In this document: positions 1 through 43,883 of the stretch, one piece after another
Layout of the letters: every line of letters begins with the position of its first letter
How positions within the stretch are numbered: the stretch's first letter is position 1
Source of the DNA: a virus
Virus record (IMG/VR): IMGVR_UViG_3300020215_000082
Location: 1 to 43,883 of that record
Strand: one strand, 5' to 3'
DNA: 43,883 nt
Position numbers and translations under genes: made by a program
Notes under the pieces: model-generated
Databases searched by the model: none
What the model saw: the letters and a program-made list of their open reading frames with translations, nothing else
What the model was told of the DNA's origin: nothing

Positions 1-126
1 GGCACTCCTGCTGGAAGCGAATTAGTGCAAATTAGAGTATCCCGAGACACATCAGACACATTGAATGCGGATGCGCGGTTGATTGCTGTGAAACTTGAAT
101 ATACGACTTCAACTTTTTCTGACTAA
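1..126 (+). CDS. C-terminal end of fibre-like protein (3' part; full copy at 42749-43867)
   Basis: The first 41 codons read GTPAGSELVQIRVSRDTSDT and onward to a TAA at 124-126. They are identical, apart from one Ser/Gly change, to the end of the 372-residue fibre-like protein encoded at 42749-43867. This is the same gene seen again because the genome is circular, not a second gene. Its stop overlaps the next start as TAATG. Confidence 0.9.
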   Translation, partial: GTPAGSELVQIRVSRDTSDTLNADARLIAVKLEYTTSTFSD

Positions 127-142
127 TGGCTAACAGATATTG
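1..142. repeat. Terminal direct repeat (circular closure), left copy
   Basis: Bases 1-142 match bases 43742-43883 at every position except one: A at 16 versus G at 43757, which changes Ser to Gly in the fibre protein. The repeat runs through the end of one fibre gene and the start of the next in the same frames, so it joins the two ends. It is best read as overlap of a circular or circularly permuted genome. The one mismatch suggests population variation rather than a strict assembly k-mer overlap. A true short terminal repeat cannot be excluded from sequence alone. Confidence 0.9.
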
Positions 143-2501
143 GGTGGGCGGTTCAGGTAACTGGAGCGATGATGATAACCACTGGGCAACAAGTAGTGGA
201 GGCTCCCCTGGCGATGGGAATATTCCTACTGCCAGTGATAACGCTATTTTTGATGCTAACTCGAACGCAACGGCTTATACAGTAACGATAAACAGCACAG
301 CGGTTTGTTTAGATCTAAATTTCTCGGCTGCACCATCCGTTTCAGGAACAATCACCTGGGCTGGAACTTCGCAGGTTACTGTTTCCGGTAATCTCATCAT
401 GTTGGCTGGTATGACAGTCTCATCGCAGGGATCAGTTGCATTTAATGCGTCTTCGGGAACAAAAACAATCACCTCTAATGGTGCAACATTAAATAGAAAT
501 GTAACCATTCAGTGTTCGGGTGCAACTTTGCAGCTTGCAGATAATCTTACTATGGGTTCAACCGCGAGTATTACCTATCAAAGTGGCACATTTGATCCGA
601 ATGGGAAGTTACTTATTATGAATGGCACATCGCAATCGATTAGTGGGGGGCTCACACTTTATGATTTGACGAGAACGGGTACAGCTGCAAAAACTGATAC
701 TTTTCAGGTTACAAATGGAAATCTCACAGTAACAAACTTACTGACGATTAATGGTAATAGTGCCATAAACAGGATTTTAGTTAGTTCTGGTGTCAGAGGT
801 ACTTCTCGTACGATAACAGCAGCATCTTTATCTTGTTCCAACCTCGATTTCCAAGATATTACAGCCGCAGGAGCTGCTTCTTGGGATTTATCCGCAATCA
901 CCGGAGGAGCAGGTGACGCCGGTGGAAACTCTGGCATTACATTTACAACCTCGACAACGCGTTACGCGGTCTCTGCAGGAAACTGGGATCAAACTGCACG
1001 TTGGGCAACTTCGTCTGGTGGAGCCAGTGGTGCCAGTGTTCCGCTTTGTCACGATGATGTGGTTTTAGATGGAAATTCAGGGACAGGCACGATTACGCAG
1101 AATATGCCGCGTGCAGGTAAGAGCATCAATTGTACAGGATACACAGGCACACTTACGACAAGCACGACCGCTTCTGTTTTTGGTAGTTGGACAATGTCTG
1201 CAGGAATGACCCTAACGGCATCAACGCAAGGTTATACGTTTGAAGGTAGGTCAAGCTATACCATAACAATGGCAGGGAAAGCATTTACGAAGCTAATTAC
1301 CCTTGATGCTCCAGGAGGTACTTATACTCTTCAGGATGTGTTTACTAATACGGGCAATGTAATTTCTGTTACTAGAGGATCGTTTATAGCCAATGGTAAT
1401 AATATAACTGGAGATTCTATATCATCTTCTAATTCGAATACTCGCGCAATCGATATTAGTAATGTTACGGTAGAACTAACGGGAGTCGGTACGCCGTGGA
1501 ACGTTGCAACATCAACGGGGCTGACGTTAACTGCGACAGGCTCTACTATCAAACTAACTAATAATTCTGCCAGCAGCAAAACGTTCGCAGGAGGAGGCAA
1601 AACCTACGGTACGCTGTGGTTTGCTCCTAGCACTGGGACTGGATCACTGACTCTCACAGGAAGTAATACATTCACAGAGTTGAAGGACGATGGAACGGCG
1701 GCGCATAGCTGGTTGTTCACCGCGAGCACTACAACAACGTTCACGACATGGAATATTAGCGGATCTGCCAGTCATACTATAACTATTGGAAGTCCTACTG
1801 CAGCTAACCATACACTCTCAAAGTCTGCGGGTACTGTTCAAGTTCAATATCTCAACATCTCTCGCTCTACTGCTCAAGGTGGAGCTACCTACGATGCGTA
1901 TACGTTGTCAGGTAATGTAGATGGAGGAAACAACTCTGGTTGGCAATTTACTGCTCCCGTAGTTCAGTCTACACGATCTCCATCAGGAGGCGCCTCCTAT
2001 GGTGCGCCTATGATGTACGGCATTCTGCTCGGACTATTATTCCTGCCTCAGCTTGCTTTCGGATCCACTCGTTTTGACCGCGCACAGGATATTGCCGCCG
2101 AGCATTTAGCGGATCATAGGATAGAAGTAGATGCCAATGTAGAGATCATTGGAACAGGTGCGCATTATTACTGCAACGGCGATTTTATAACAATTTCGAA
2201 GGAGATTGCTGAGAAAAGAGATTTCCCAAATCTCGTAGCTGTTTTAACACATGAATACTTACACTCGATTGATAAACGTCTGTGTGAAGAACACACAAAA
2301 ACAGAGCAGTTGATCTATGAAGAACTTACCGATTATGTCATGGTTCGTATTTTGGAGGAACGTTGGGGAAAACACGTTAAACCCACGTACGACATTTCGA
2401 AATGGAAGAGACGATTAGACACGCAGAACCTTTGGGGTGTGGTGTTTATTTTTCGTCACTACACACGAGAGCAAATACTTGAACTTATTTACACTAAATA
2501 A
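126..2501 (+). CDS. Fibre-like beta-rich protein with C-terminal zinc metallopeptidase (gluzincin-like) domain
   Basis: This is a 791-residue product. Residues 1-620 are Ser/Thr/Gly-rich and beta-prone, with two copies of a motif of the form RYxVxxGNWxxxxxWATSSGG (about residues 4-25 and 287-306), as in virion fibres or adhesins. Residues 629-648 (MMYGILLGLLFLPQLAFG) read as a signal peptide or membrane segment with an AFG-S cleavage-like site. The last 145 residues contain HEYLH at 709-713 and, 19-20 residues later, EELTD, which is the HExxH-x18/19-ExxxD spacing of thermolysin-type gluzincins. A peptidase fused behind a signal-like segment in a fibre is very unusual. Met629 or Met630 could serve as an internal start for a separate secreted peptidase of about 162 residues. 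The gene overlaps the preceding stop (TAATG) and ends 3 nt before the adaptor gene. Peptidase activity is inferred. Confidence 0.75.
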   Translation: MANRYWVGGSGNWSDDDNHWATSSGGSPGDGNIPTASDNAIFDANSNATAYTVTINSTAVCLDLNFSAAPSVSGTITWAGTSQVTVSGNLIMLAGMTVSSQGSVAFNASSGTKTITSNGATLNRNVTIQCSGATLQLADNLTMGSTASITYQSGTFDPNGKLLIMNGTSQSISGGLTLYDLTRTGTAAKTDTFQVTNGNLTVTNLLTINGNSAINRILVSSGVRGTSRTITAASLSCSNLDFQDITAAGAASWDLSAITGGAGDAGGNSGITFTTSTTRYAVSAGNWDQTARWATSSGGASGASVPLCHDDVVLDGNSGTGTITQNMPRAGKSINCTGYTGTLTTSTTASVFGSWTMSAGMTLTASTQGYTFEGRSSYTITMAGKAFTKLITLDAPGGTYTLQDVFTNTGNVISVTRGSFIANGNNITGDSISSSNSNTRAIDISNVTVELTGVGTPWNVATSTGLTLTATGSTIKLTNNSASSKTFAGGGKTYGTLWFAPSTGTGSLTLTGSNTFTELKDDGTAAHSWLFTASTTTTFTTWNISGSASHTITIGSPTAANHTLSKSAGTVQVQYLNISRSTAQGGATYDAYTLSGNVDGGNNSGWQFTAPVVQSTRSPSGGASYGAPMMYGILLGLLFLPQLAFGSTRFDRAQDIAAEHLADHRIEVDANVEIIGTGAHYYCNGDFITISKEIAEKRDFPNLVAVLTHEYLHSIDKRLCEEHTKTEQLIYEELTDYVMVRILEERWGKHVKPTYDISKWKRRLDTQNLWGVVFIFRHYTREQILELIYTK
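1985..1998. repeat. Perfect palindrome AGGAGGCGCCTCCT before possible internal start
   Basis: A 14-bp perfect inverted repeat lies 12-25 nt upstream of the ATGATG codons (2010-2015) that open the signal-peptide-like segment of the fibre/peptidase gene. Its left arm is a perfect Shine-Dalgarno sequence, but it is 19 nt from the ATG and would be hidden in a hairpin. It could regulate internal initiation, or be only a Gly/Ser codon effect. Confidence 0.4.
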
Positions 2502-2504
2502 CCT

Positions 2505-3143
2505 ATGAGCACTTTAGGCGATCTCCAGACTAAGCTCAATCACTCTCTCATGAATGCAGAGACGAATCTCTATACAAATGAGAAGCGTATTGACGCAATC
2601 AATCGTTCCATAGAAACAATTCTCAAGAAATTTGATGTACCGTGGTATACGCTCACGAGCTCAATCTCGTTTACATCCGGAGCTGCGACGCTGCCTGCAA
2701 CGTTTCTGCGTGCGATCAAGGTATTCAATAGCAGTGATCTGGAATACACGCAAGTGAGTCCGAATGATTTTGATAATGACATTTCTAACACTTGGACAAT
2801 CAAATGGGACGGCACATCCGCGTTCAAACTCTACATCTATCCTGCGTCAACAACCTCGCTCACGTACCGCTACATCGAGTATCCCACACGGCTCTCTGCC
2901 AGTAGCGATACTGTGCGTTTCCCCGTGTATTGGGATGAAGCAATCGCGGAGTTGGCGGCATTCACTCTTTTGCAGCAATCTCGCAACACAAGTGACGCGC
3001 AGGTGAAAAAAATGATTGCAGATGACAAGATTGCAGAAGCTTGGCAACAGGATGCAAAACTAGTAGACGGTCCAGTCGGTATGCGTTTGAAATCACTGTA
3101 TGAAGATTATTCCTTTTTACGAACCTCCCCACGATGGCGGTAA
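2505..3143 (+). CDS. Head-to-tail adaptor-like protein
   Basis: A 212-residue protein starting MSTLGDLQTKLNHSLMNAET, predicted mostly helical with a beta insertion around residues 50-130. Its size and position (between fibre/portal functions and the nozzle protein) fit the podoviral adaptor that sits under the portal ring, such as P22 gp4 or T7 gp11-type proteins. That family assignment is from general fold features and synteny, not from a diagnostic motif. The start at 2505 follows TAACCT with no Shine-Dalgarno. The 3' end overlaps the next gene by 10 nt, suggesting coupled translation. Confidence 0.6.
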   Translation: MSTLGDLQTKLNHSLMNAETNLYTNEKRIDAINRSIETILKKFDVPWYTLTSSISFTSGAATLPATFLRAIKVFNSSDLEYTQVSPNDFDNDISNTWTIKWDGTSAFKLYIYPASTTSLTYRYIEYPTRLSASSDTVRFPVYWDEAIAELAAFTLLQQSRNTSDAQVKKMIADDKIAEAWQQDAKLVDGPVGMRLKSLYEDYSFLRTSPRWR

Positions 3144-6337: not shown

Positions 6338-9300
6338 ATGGCTAATTTTAAACATTTATTCGATCCGAAAAAACCTATCGTCATGGGCGGTAATTTTGAT
6401 GTTGCCGATGATGAAATGGCACAAATCAAAAGCATTGGCGCAAAACGGTTTGCAGGACTGGATGAGAATAAGCTACTACGCCTGTACTTGCAACAACGCG
6501 GCGAGGGTCATCAGGGCGGGTTATTTGAAGCGGTGCAACAAGGACTAGGCAAAGGGAAATTTGCGAAGGCTCCGGAAGCTGTTACGGCATACAACAAGGA
6601 ACAGTCTGAAGCTGCCAAGAAAGCTGCAGATGCTGCACGTAAGGCTGAGTTTTATAAAGACCCTCAAAAAAAAAGTAAGCAATACTATATCCTGGGTGGA
6701 AACATTTTATATGAAGGGGAAGAGAGACAAACACGCGGTCCTGCAGAGGCGAGTACTGCGACAAGGATATTGAGACACGACCACAAGACAGGTGAGCCTA
6801 TCTACGGACCCGAAAAGCCGAGTCAAGGCGCTCCTGCCCAACAATTTACAGATTCAAGTAACGGTAACAAAACAGCTATGCCAGATCAAGGAACAAGCGC
6901 GCCGTGGTTTACACCGGACGGCAAAGTAAATCCAGGCATGGAGGGTAGTCTGGCCGGAAAGAGTACCGCGCAGCCAGCGGGTATGTTTGATGCCAACGGA
7001 AATGTGCTTACCCCAGGTGTGTTTGAGAAACCAGTACAACCGCAACCTACGGGTAATGCTACAGCAGATGCAGAAGCACAACGCCAGTATCAGGAACAAT
7101 TACGTATCAATGCAACAAATCAGGATAAGACGCTACGTGGGACCGACCCGAGGTATGGTGATACAGGTGACCAACCCTATTATCAGATACCTGGTGAAGA
7201 TACAACACAAGCGGGAAATCAGAGAGATATGGGGTATGGGGATGTTCCAGAGAGTGCGCCGGATGGTACGGGCAATGCTTTAGGTAATGCGGACGGTCCT
7301 AGGGTTCCGGAAAATACCTCGCCCTCCTTTTCGAAGGAAATGGAACCCGTCAACGAGCCCGCCGCGAATCAGGAATACATCAATCAGCTCACTTCTTCTG
7401 CCTACGGCACGAGCTTAGACATCGGAGACGGCAGCCCAGCAGAAGACACGTTCGGTTCTGGCTTGGCTTTAGATGACCTGACAAAATATCAGATCGATCT
7501 GCAGATTAAAGGATACAACGACATTGCTTCAGCACTCGGCCAGCGTATTCAGTTAGCACAAGCTGAGTTTGAAGCGTCTAAGGCACGGTATGAGGCAGAC
7601 AAGGTGAAATGGGGTAGCGTTTTGGCTCATAAAGAAGAAATGGCACTAGAAGCCAATAAACTGGCATCGGATGAAGCCAAAGCTAAATATGGCACGCAAT
7701 TGGCAGTGATGCGGGATAACAACAGCCGTTTGGAAGGATATTTGAAAGCCAAGCTCGCTTCTATGGGGGCCTTGGATAGTGGCGCAGGCTTGTCGTACCT
7801 CTCCAAGGCTATGGCAATGTCTGACTTGGCGATCTCCGAAGTAGAACGCGATTCGGAACATGCGCAGAGATACTACAACCTGCAAGGACGTGAGATCATG
7901 ATGGATTACACGACTAAAGCAATGCAGTTGCAGGACGATTATAATACAAGGATTGATTCGCTGACGAGTAATTTCATGGGGCAGGTAGCGGAAGCTCAGG
8001 AATCGCTTGTGTTATCCGAGACTACGAAAAATCAGAATATTGTAAGCATTATCAAAGATTTCAAGAAGCAGGAAGTGGAACAGAAAAACGAACTGTTCAA
8101 GCAGAAAATGGATTTGCTGCGATTCAGCTTAGATGAAGCCAAGTTCAATCAGGAAGTTGTGATGGATGCGGTGAAAGCGGATCAGTGGGAGAAAGAATTC
8201 GGATTCTCTCAATTTCAATTTGAAGCTAACTACGGCTTGGATGTTGCGAAGTTTGAAGAGGACAAGACACAGTTTGGCATGAATTATGCCATGAATCAGC
8301 AAAAGTTTGCATTCGATATGGCAAACGCAGATCGACAATACGCTCTCAGTGCGGCCGAGTTTGAACAAGGCGTGTATGAGTCAGACAGAGATTATGAACT
8401 ACGAGTCGGAGAGTTCAATCAGGCTGCTTCTAAAGCAGAGATGGATCGCGTACAGAAACTCGTGGATTCTGGTGCTTTACCAGCTTCGGCCATGAATCAA
8501 TTCATGAGTCCGGAGGATGTAATCACGTCCGGTGAATACGTAAGCGGCAAATACGAATTCAATCTTGGCGATGAGCTCCAAAAGATCGTCCAAAAGGTTA
8601 CGACAAATCCGGCCAAACTGTATAAGAGCGGATATCAATGCGTTCAATTTGTTCGTGATGTGGTTAAAGACCTTCCTAAAGGTTTGACTAGCTTGCAGGA
8701 CAAGATAACTAAGTTAGTAAAGTCTAAATATGCAATTCCGGAGCCAGAACCAGGTGCAGTGCTTGTCACCAACGATGGCAAGTTTGGACACGTTGCATTG
8801 GTTACATCTGTGAATAGAGCGAATAACACATTTACCGTCTCAGAGTTTAATTACAAGAAGGGTCGATATGGGACTCGTACAATTTCCATGAATGATCCGA
8901 AGATCGAGGGGTATTGGAAGAGTCCAAAGGTCAAGAGTGGTGGAGGGATGCAACAGTTGGATGTTTTGACGGGTGGTAAAGCAACAAAGGAACAGCAAGC
9001 TGCATATCAGAGAGCAGTCGAAGGTGGATACGAGCAAGAATTTCTCAACACAATTAAGACGCAGAGTGAAAAACCAGCGTCGGCTGAATCTGCAAAAGTC
9101 CGTGAAATTGCGAATTCTGGTTTGCGGCAGTTAGATAATTTAGAGAGCCTCATCATTAATTCCAGCGGTGGGATAGATAAACATCGCATGATAACCGAGG
9201 GGCCACTTAATACAGACGTGAAATTTGCTTTAGATGATCTAACGGATTTGATCGGTCGTTTGCGTTCGGGCGGTGCAATTAACTCTGATGAAGAAGCCAG

Positions 9301-9517
9301 ATTTAAAAGGTTACTTCCAAATATATGGGATAGCGATGAAACAATACGCGGAAAACTTGCGGAATTTAGGACAAAGTTTCAGGGAGTAAGTGACGGTCTT
9401 TCTGGCGGACAAAATGGAGGAACGATGCAAGTGCGATCTCCTGACGGTACGGTAGGAACTATTCCCTCTGAAGATTGGTCGGCAGCACAGCAAGAAGGTT
9501 ATACACTCGTAAATTAA
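6338..9517 (+). CDS. Large internal/ejection protein with CHAP peptidoglycan hydrolase domain
   Basis: A 1059-residue protein. Residues 1-370 are low-complexity (Pro/Gly/Gln/Asn). Residues 375-740 form long helical, Glu/Lys/Ala/Gln-rich coiled coils. Residues about 760-870 match a CHAP amidase/endopeptidase: Cys768 in GYQCVQFVRDV, then GAVLVTNDGKFGHVALV with His818, then an acidic/Asn position in SEFNY. The C-terminal 190 residues are helical and end in a segment of the form SPDGTVGTIPSEDW. Its size, coiled coils and muralytic domain fit a podoviral internal virion protein that is ejected and opens the cell wall. Translation starts in ATAACATGGCT. The next gene begins 8 nt downstream. Confidence 0.8.
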   Translation: MANFKHLFDPKKPIVMGGNFDVADDEMAQIKSIGAKRFAGLDENKLLRLYLQQRGEGHQGGLFEAVQQGLGKGKFAKAPEAVTAYNKEQSEAAKKAADAARKAEFYKDPQKKSKQYYILGGNILYEGEERQTRGPAEASTATRILRHDHKTGEPIYGPEKPSQGAPAQQFTDSSNGNKTAMPDQGTSAPWFTPDGKVNPGMEGSLAGKSTAQPAGMFDANGNVLTPGVFEKPVQPQPTGNATADAEAQRQYQEQLRINATNQDKTLRGTDPRYGDTGDQPYYQIPGEDTTQAGNQRDMGYGDVPESAPDGTGNALGNADGPRVPENTSPSFSKEMEPVNEPAANQEYINQLTSSAYGTSLDIGDGSPAEDTFGSGLALDDLTKYQIDLQIKGYNDIASALGQRIQLAQAEFEASKARYEADKVKWGSVLAHKEEMALEANKLASDEAKAKYGTQLAVMRDNNSRLEGYLKAKLASMGALDSGAGLSYLSKAMAMSDLAISEVERDSEHAQRYYNLQGREIMMDYTTKAMQLQDDYNTRIDSLTSNFMGQVAEAQESLVLSETTKNQNIVSIIKDFKKQEVEQKNELFKQKMDLLRFSLDEAKFNQEVVMDAVKADQWEKEFGFSQFQFEANYGLDVAKFEEDKTQFGMNYAMNQQKFAFDMANADRQYALSAAEFEQGVYESDRDYELRVGEFNQAASKAEMDRVQKLVDSGALPASAMNQFMSPEDVITSGEYVSGKYEFNLGDELQKIVQKVTTNPAKLYKSGYQCVQFVRDVVKDLPKGLTSLQDKITKLVKSKYAIPEPEPGAVLVTNDGKFGHVALVTSVNRANNTFTVSEFNYKKGRYGTRTISMNDPKIEGYWKSPKVKSGGGMQQLDVLTGGKATKEQQAAYQRAVEGGYEQEFLNTIKTQSEKPASAESAKVREIANSGLRQLDNLESLIINSSGGIDKHRMITEGPLNTDVKFALDDLTDLIGRLRSGGAINSDEEARFKRLLPNIWDSDETIRGKLAEFRTKFQGVSDGLSGGQNGGTMQVRSPDGTVGTIPSEDWSAAQQEGYTLVN

Positions 9518-39603: not shown

Positions 39604-40215
39604 ATGGAACAAAAAGTACTCGTCGGAATACCGAGTGGATCAGGACAATTGCCTTCTCAGGTGGTACTTTCTTTGCTTGGTTTAAAAAAGCCAAAAGGAA
39701 CCGTATTTGCCATTGTGTCGCGACAATTCATCGATACAGCACGCAATAGTATTGTGCAGTTGGCACTCAACAAAGGATTCACACATGTATTCTTTGTAGA
39801 TGACGATATGACCTTGCATCCTGATTCTCTAGTGAGGCTGCTCGCGCGGAAGAAGGACATTGTAGGTGGTGTATATAGAATTCGTGGGGAGACTAAGAAA
39901 TACGTCGCTTGCTTACAGCGTAAAGGGTGGATTTATCACAAGTTGGAAGGTTTCAAGAAAGAAGGATTACATGAAGTAGATGCTATTGGTACGGGCAGTT
40001 TGTTGATTACGCGTAAGGTGCTGGAGAAAGTCTGGAATAAGTATAAAGGATTTCCGTTTCAGATTTCTTACAAGAAGCATGGTGGGAAATTATACAGTCA
40101 AACCGAGGATGTGAACTTCTGTGAGAAGGCACAGGCGGTGGGTTTCAAGATTTGGGCCGATACAACGGTACGCCCGGGTCATATTCAGCATGAACCTCAA
40201 ATTCTTTACTACTAA
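39604..40215 (+). CDS. Glycosyltransferase (GT-A fold)
   Basis: A 203-residue protein. The nucleotide-sugar binding signature is present: IPSGSGQLPSQVVLSLLGL at the start, ARNSIVQLALNKGFTHVFFVDDDM with the DDD metal site near residue 68, then LLARKKDIVGGVYR and, near the end, YSQTEDVNFCEKAQAVGF. The length equals a minimal GT-A catalytic domain. Its position between two Ser/Thr/Gly-rich fibre genes suggests that it glycosylates virion proteins. The sugar is unknown. An ATG with no Shine-Dalgarno starts the gene. Confidence 0.8.
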   Translation: MEQKVLVGIPSGSGQLPSQVVLSLLGLKKPKGTVFAIVSRQFIDTARNSIVQLALNKGFTHVFFVDDDMTLHPDSLVRLLARKKDIVGGVYRIRGETKKYVACLQRKGWIYHKLEGFKKEGLHEVDAIGTGSLLITRKVLEKVWNKYKGFPFQISYKKHGGKLYSQTEDVNFCEKAQAVGFKIWADTTVRPGHIQHEPQILYY

Positions 40216-42748: not shown

Positions 42749-43867
42749 ATGGCATATAAATTCAATCCGTTCACAAATAAACTGGATGATGTAGGCAGTT
42801 CTTCTGGAACGGTAACTGGGCCAGGATCGTCAACTGACAACGCAGTGGCGCGCTTCGATGGAGCAGGTGGTTCTACTCTTCAGAACAGCGGGGTAATTAT
42901 CGATGATTCTAATAATGTTACTGGAATTGCTTCAATAACGATCAACAATACTGGACTGAAGATTAAGGATACTAATGCAAGTCACAATCTCTCCATTGTT
43001 CCAGGATCTGATTTATCAGCCGATCGGACATTAACACTCACCACAGGCGACTCGGATCGAACATTAACAATTAGTGGGAATACAACGCTGAGTGGTGGTA
43101 CACATAGCGGCACGAATACGGGAGATCAGACAATTCAGCTTACGGGGGACGTTACGGGTTCAGGTACGGGGTCATTTGCAGCCACAATTGCGAATGATGC
43201 AGTAACGTACGCAAAAATACAGAATGTAAGTGCTACAGATAAGATATTAGGGCGTTCATCCTCCGGCGCAGGTGATGTGGAAGAGATTGATTGCACGGCT
43301 GCGGGGCGTGCGCTACTCGATGATGCAAACGCTGCGGCTCAGAGGACTACACTTGGGTTGAATGCAACTACACGCACAATTGTTCTCTCGGCAGCAGGTG
43401 GTTGGGGATCTACCACAAATGGAGCGGCCGCTGCGACGAAAGTGGAATACACGACTAACGATCAGGATTTACAATTGATGGATTTTGATCAAACGACTCA
43501 AGAGTATGCGCAATGGACGATAGTAATGCCCGATAGTTACGACGGAGGAACAATTACTGGAATCTTCTATTGGACAGCTGCATCTGGTACTGGAACGGTT
43601 ACATGGACACTTCAGGGGCGCTCCTATGCAGATGATGAGGCCATTGATCAAGCATGGGGTACTGCACAGAGTGTGACGGATACCTTACTTGCTACTGGTG
43701 ATGTGCATATTACCTCAGCAACTGCTGCGGTTACCTTGGCAGGCACTCCTGCTGGAGGCGAATTAGTGCAAATTAGAGTATCCCGAGACACATCAGACAC
43801 ATTGAATGCGGATGCGCGGTTGATTGCTGTGAAACTTGAATATACGACTTCAACTTTTTCTGACTAA
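42749..43867 (+). CDS. Fibre-like virion protein
   Basis: A 372-residue protein, Thr/Gly/Ser-rich. The N-terminus has MAYKFNPFTNKLDDVG followed by GPGSSTDNAVARFDGAGGSTLQNSGV, a frequent fibre signature; a shaft region with TLTTGDSDRTLTISGNTTLSGG follows. From about residue 230 a jelly-roll-like C-terminal domain leads to the end. It continues over the window end (1-126), where one residue differs (Gly to Ser). Confidence 0.8.
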   Translation: MAYKFNPFTNKLDDVGSSSGTVTGPGSSTDNAVARFDGAGGSTLQNSGVIIDDSNNVTGIASITINNTGLKIKDTNASHNLSIVPGSDLSADRTLTLTTGDSDRTLTISGNTTLSGGTHSGTNTGDQTIQLTGDVTGSGTGSFAATIANDAVTYAKIQNVSATDKILGRSSSGAGDVEEIDCTAAGRALLDDANAAAQRTTLGLNATTRTIVLSAAGGWGSTTNGAAAATKVEYTTNDQDLQLMDFDQTTQEYAQWTIVMPDSYDGGTITGIFYWTAASGTGTVTWTLQGRSYADDEAIDQAWGTAQSVTDTLLATGDVHITSATAAVTLAGTPAGGELVQIRVSRDTSDTLNADARLIAVKLEYTTSTFSD

Positions 43868-43883
43868 TGGCTAACAGATATTG
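43742..43883. repeat. Terminal direct repeat, right copy
   Basis: It matches bases 1-142 apart from a single substitution at 43757 (G) against 16 (A). See the left copy for interpretation. Confidence 0.9.
43867..43883 (+). CDS. Start of fibre/metallopeptidase gene (5' part; full copy at 126-2501)
   Basis: The last 17 bases, ATGGCTAACAGATATTG, begin the same gene as the one starting at 126 and overlap the preceding TAA. Confidence 0.9.

Follow-up and report, generated by a model that had tools for sequence, protein, structure and literature searches.

The enzymes so far described on phage fibres are for the most part depolymerases that cut glycans, or serine chaperones that cleave themselves. 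Among such chaperones is Peptidase S74, the C-terminal, self-cleaving intramolecular chaperone of T5 pb1 type fibres and tailspikes (PMC4690869), while zincin-like domains with an HExxH motif are found in multidomain phage proteins such as the N4-type virion RNA polymerase, which is packaged in the virion, and other 'polyvalent' proteins (PMC5512222, PMC12633501). The IMG/VR virus record IMGVR_UViG_3300020215_000082, that of an uncultured tailed phage, analysed here over its whole length of 43,883 nucleotides (the window), contains at positions 126-2501 (plus strand) an uninterrupted open reading frame (ORF) coding for a 791 amino acid protein, in which a putative beta-solenoid fibre is followed by a C-terminal zincin-like domain. 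The ORF itself is real, and the explanation we tentatively put forward is that it encodes one polypeptide, a fibre to whose end a peptidase, probably dependent on zinc, is tethered; this peptidase would most likely cut a host surface protein. The arrangement resembles the S74 fibres in that a peptidase-type domain is C-terminal on a beta-structured fibre, but differs from these Ser/Lys enzymes in its zinc signature, and the Peptidase S74 profile does not match the window protein. Unlike the N4-type domain, which is carried by an injected RNA polymerase, that of the window is carried by a fibre, and the likeness between the two rests on the motif and not on sequence similarity. By analogy, the window protein would combine the placement of a tailspike enzyme with the chemistry of the N4 virion zincin, the fibre family being the only group of which it is a tested member. 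A preliminary description of this DNA, made from the sequence alone, held that no phage fibre of such arrangement is known; in agreement with this, literature searches (subscription journals being mostly outside their coverage) recovered no phage fibre fused to a zincin.

Residues 1-612 fall into a beta-solenoid family that is common in aquatic tailed-phage contigs, where the viral-contig candidates include at least 544 members of it. AlphaFold2, run with a 25-sequence alignment, predicts a strand-rich beta-solenoid of two modules from residue 1 to ~612. The predicted local distance difference test (pLDDT) value of this part is ~90; as far as residue 610 the 10-residue blocks have values of 72-97, most of them exceeding 85, and confidence drops at ~612. 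The fibre part as delimited here (residues 1-609; 126-1952, plus strand) comprises two modules of the MANRYWVGG type, predicted to be parallel beta-solenoids by AlphaFold2 and by comparison with BFVD. Both the N-terminal M-A-x-R-Y-W-V-G-G signature and the beta-solenoid fold that were sought in a test of family membership are present, and the window fibre shares 33-46% identity with the 24 relatives in the alignment. Among the nearest viral structures are proteins from uncultured tailed phages that bear the name 'parallel beta-helix repeat' (BFVD, E 1.5e-25). With the MANRYWVGG-type proteins found in uncultured Caudoviricetes, of which A0A6J5T8W4 ('Parallel beta-helix repeat') is an example, the window protein has in common the N-terminal signature, the two-module solenoid, the GNNxGWxF end and the setting among virion genes. 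A fold search of the PDB with the full model returned nothing at E <= 0.001, the weak matches being of autotransporter, hemopexin-binding and tailspike beta-helix kinds, and a PDB sequence search returned no match. In the loci L033 and L045 the same type of fibre is encoded among capsid and tail genes, between a glycosyltransferase-like gene and a tail protein gene. The protein is considered a putative fibre because of the beta-helix structure matches, its virion-gene neighbours and the context in these two loci. Fibre relatives are also present in contigs binned to the Patescibacteria, a gammaproteobacterium, the Bacteroidetes and the Opitutae (L178, L180, L169, L170, L172).

In most relatives the chain ends 14-32 amino acids past the last GNNxGWxF motif, a trait that is common and neither universal nor family-defining. 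The window protein lacks this short end and extends ~170-180 residues beyond the usual stop, through SPSGGASYGAP and then MMYGILLGLLFLPQLAFG, indicating that its last ~170 amino acids are an addition. A minority of relatives also carry other repeats or extensions, and of the relatives examined the window protein is the only one with a gluzincin-type HExxH domain. The final residues of the relatives form a Ser/Gly/Pro-rich spacer, often with a short hydrophobic tail (NFLMFF, GNFFMLF, APFFAMM), examples being the fibre genes at 5037-7139 in L071 and 5001-7028 in L018, among those of L008-L087. Five or more of the residues F, M, L, I, V, Y and W occur within the last nine positions in 20 of 31 tails, which were compiled by hand and are not all mutually independent, against a background of 7%. 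At the position of this tail the window protein has the Ser/Gly/Pro-rich spacer APVVQSTRSPSGGASYGAP (residues 610-628; 1953-2009, plus strand), which sits where the relatives have theirs, followed by the hydrophobic, signal-peptide-like segment MMYGILLGLLFLPQLAFG (residues 629-646; 2010-2063, plus strand), which contains the protein's most hydrophobic 17-mer (mean Kyte-Doolittle value 1.84). Since the reading frame is uninterrupted and the spacer, which it also encodes, is of the type found in the relatives, a single chain is favoured, and an in-frame fusion of fibre and extra domain is, taken alone, very probable. The solenoid up to ~612, the point at which relatives stop and the neighbouring virion genes all bear out the earlier claim that a fibre-type structural protein has gained additional sequence at its C-terminus.

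The added orphan domain (residues 647-791; 2064-2498, plus strand) is a putative minimal zincin, as suggested by its HExxH consensus, the spacing of its acidic residues and a sub-threshold SprT-like match. HEYLH at residues 709-713 (2250-2264, plus strand), the sole HExxH of the protein, would provide the zinc ligands H709 and H713 and the base E710, while EELTD at residues 732-736 (2319-2333, plus strand) would provide E732 as third ligand, together with D736. Gluzincins have a spacing between HExxH and the third-ligand Glu of 18 residues in M1 and 19 in thermolysin. A Glu at ~18-19 residues past HExxH with an Asp at +4 is likewise present here (HEYLH-x18-E732, D736; E733 also follows the motif), so that the preliminary description of HEYLH followed by EELTD at gluzincin spacing is correct, the pattern being HExxH-x18-E-x3-D. 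The strict consensus of zinc peptidases is a-b-X-H-E-b-b-H-b-c, and VLTHEYLHSI satisfies it in full. Only five of 4,302 other ORFs do so: an M1 aminopeptidase by sequence in L185 (HELAHSW...NEGF), an ORF with an M78 match above the Pfam cut-off in L190, two ORFs with weak zincin-family matches in L143 (SprT-like/WLM/M78) and L191 (astacin), and an unclear case, of lysozyme type by appearance, in L084. At least two of the five are thus genuine zinc peptidases, which suggests that the strict consensus mostly marks zincins. The looser pattern HExxH-x17-20-ExxxD arises in 0.09% of trials when the domain is shuffled, and occurs once in 824,000 amino acids of other ORFs, namely in a phage structural protein (L230) where it violates the strict consensus and is a chance match; the same chance match was the only one in a scan of viral_contigs with a DNA pattern of the catalytic core. 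The loose motif by itself is consequently no proof.

The best family match of the stretch containing the motif is to SprT-like (PF10263; E 0.032, 14.5 bits against a Pfam cut-off of 25.6). The domain would resemble the SprT-like and IrrE-like/M78 (PF06114) minimal zincins of phages and bacteria in its predicted short strand before the HExxH helix and its putative third-ligand Glu in the next helix, and differs from them in scoring below the curated cut-off and in being fused to a fibre. The designation 'thermolysin-type' could not be upheld, as neither M4 nor any further curated family of peptidases gave a match in Pfam or NCBIfam; membership of thermolysin/M4 was rejected given that neither the catalytic nor the C-terminal domain model of M4 is among the matches. 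Weak and implausible matches to phrog_1314 HNH and to KNTC1 were also dismissed. Residues 647-791 are probably a zincin. Free-standing zincin-like genes are carried by phages with a related terminase (L190, 1858-2157, with the M78 match above the cut-off; L191, 18108-18659, and L143, 8408-8890, both weak), and the L143 protein shows no significant similarity to the window domain.

It is unlikely that the locus instead yields two products, a fibre and a secreted zinc peptidase initiated separately in the same frame from ATG 2010 or 2013 with MMYGILLGLLFLPQLAFG as its signal peptide, or that two genes have been joined by a sequence or assembly error. The C-terminal ~145 amino acids do resemble a small free-standing enzyme, and the signal-peptide-like h-region with its A-F-G/ST site begins exactly at the tandem ATGs. 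The ATGATG at 2010 further includes an ATGA overlap of a start codon with a +1-frame TGA (2010-2013), a usual form for adjacent phage genes, and a small sequence change there could therefore join two neighbouring genes. However, the frame ending at this TGA is open for merely 16 codons upstream, the other late genes are mostly 1-50 nt apart rather than overlapping by ATGA, the n-region has no positive charge, and the in-frame spacer has the character seen in the rest of the family. The preliminary description pointed to a palindrome with a perfect Shine-Dalgarno arm in front of the segment. This palindrome, AGGAGGC/GCCTCCT at 1985-1998, is indeed present, but perfect 14-nt palindromes are at chance level (four against 2.7 expected), the RNA fold around it is ordinary (z = -0.99), and its AGGAGG ends 19 nt before ATG 2010. 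Nor does the phage appear to use Shine-Dalgarno sequences: 40 gene starts, picked from the ORF table so that a few may be wrong, have a mean longest match of 2.9 nt, against 3.0 at 589 in-gene ATGs, and their leaders are A+T-rich (69%), which suggests a host with initiation independent of Shine-Dalgarno sequences. Upstream of ATG 2010 and ATG 2013 the A+T content is 30-40%, and their scores are average for ATGs inside genes; compared with the 40 starts, their contexts rank in the bottom 5% and 2.5%, respectively. Internal initiation through a Shine-Dalgarno sequence, which had been offered as the source of a secreted peptidase, was thus discarded as the leading view. A hydrophobic segment 628 residues from the N-terminus of a cytoplasmic full-length fibre should, moreover, not work as a signal peptide. 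The description of MMYGILLGLLFLPQLAFG as an export signal is accurate as to its hydrophobic, signal-peptide-like character, and a second explanation exists: as it occupies the position of the relatives' hydrophobic C-terminal tail (by position, not by alignment), it may be an enlarged version of that tail.

The remaining alternatives accept a single chain and concern what its end does. The domain could be a processing factor or chaperone which acts on its own fibre, for example by cleaving it in the hydrophobic linker once assembly is complete, and which the mature virion no longer contains, as holds for the serine-dependent intramolecular chaperones in other fibres. Fibre and domain are indeed separated by a linker that has a hydrophobic patch and an A-F-G site, and after removal of the domain the mature fibre would look like its relatives, which end there. 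Yet the known cases work by a Ser/Lys mechanism rather than zinc, S74 has no counterpart here, and the relatives' fibres do without any such domain, so that this maturation role seems improbable, marginally more so than two products. There is likewise only a small chance that the domain is a non-enzymatic tip or receptor-binding domain with a fortuitous HExxH and E/D, or a zincin that has degenerated and now serves in binding. The wide C-terminal variation in the fibre family, the chance occurrence of the loose motif in L230 and the lack of homologs, of a confident fold and of a family match agree with such a role; the fully satisfied strict consensus, and the x18 spacing to Glu with Asp at +4, which fits gluzincins, count against it. 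The predicted order of elements, in a low-confidence model, also fits a zincin: the single-sequence model has a helix, two strands, the HExxH helix and a long helix with E732, in keeping with the description of the zincin core in PMC5512222. At a pLDDT of 38 this agreement counts for little.

Several observations weigh against a tethered peptidase. No relative of the C-terminal domain, split or fused, was found in 8-mer scans of viral_contigs and genome_contigs, in which only close relatives are detectable, nor by tblastn of phages and of plasmids, nor in 167 loci and 50 viral records. None was found either in ~1,370 genomes from four phyla and in the 16 genomes that have a fibre relative on one of their contigs; as the genome searches lacked a positive control and the 8-mer scans see close relatives only, this absence is weak evidence. 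The domain has no curated family match, its pLDDT is below 50 in both AlphaFold2 runs (full chain, and alone from a single sequence, where the model is unusable), and the L230 case shows that chance alone can produce the loose motif in a structural protein of a phage. Furthermore, the segment preceding the domain resembles a signal peptide (A-F-G before ST), and both the presence of the product in virions and its cutting activity are putative.

Under the explanation put forward, the gene would yield a single virion structural polypeptide; its two-module beta-solenoid and the ~180 in-frame residues beyond it are seen in the sequence and the predicted structure. Residues 647-791 of this chain would bind zinc and fold as a minimal zincin, with an N-terminal helix, a short beta sheet, the HExxH helix and another helix that holds E732/D736. 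A tether made up of the Ser/Gly/Pro-rich spacer and the hydrophobic segment would keep this peptidase at the free end of the fibre, away from the conserved N-terminus, where it could cut a host surface protein as the phage adsorbs, in the manner of the glycan depolymerases borne by tailspikes. A zinc peptidase is the firmer part of this explanation, the role in surface digestion the less secure one, and the full proposal of a new zincin peptidase family at the free end of a beta-helix fibre, digesting a host surface protein on adsorption, is rather doubtful.

The ends of the record overlap by 142 bases (1-142 and 43742-43883) that are identical except for one mismatch, A against G, at position 16, and the genome is therefore probably complete, circular or terminally redundant, with the mismatch reflecting strain variation. 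With the ends overlapping, the fibre gene comes right after the last gene of the window. It is followed by a gene for an SU10-type head-tail adaptor (2505-3143, plus strand; PF24175, E 7.5e-13), which lies in the context of a virion operon, a gene of tail or internal-virion type and a gene for a CHAP protein, with the terminase, portal and capsid genes further round the circle. By their predicted products, the neighbours are late virion genes. The 1059 amino acid CHAP protein (6338-9517; CHAP domain E 8.9e-9), encoded in the virion operon, is probably an internal virion peptidoglycan hydrolase. A Glycosyltransferase-2-like gene, scoring slightly below the Pfam cut-off, is located inside the structural operon at 39604-40215, and a similar gene occurs close to the fibre in L033 and L045. 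In a comparison of synteny with G341, the closest whole phage, neither a fibre of the MANRYWVGG type nor a peptidase was found at the corresponding place.

The prediction can be tested on a single purified domain of ~145 residues. Should the domain process its own fibre, it would represent a zinc-dependent alternative to S74 maturation. Should the tethered peptidase be borne out, some phages would cut a proteinaceous barrier or receptor with a fibre-borne zinc protease, a new type of virion-borne protease and the proteolytic counterpart of the glycan depolymerases of tailspikes.
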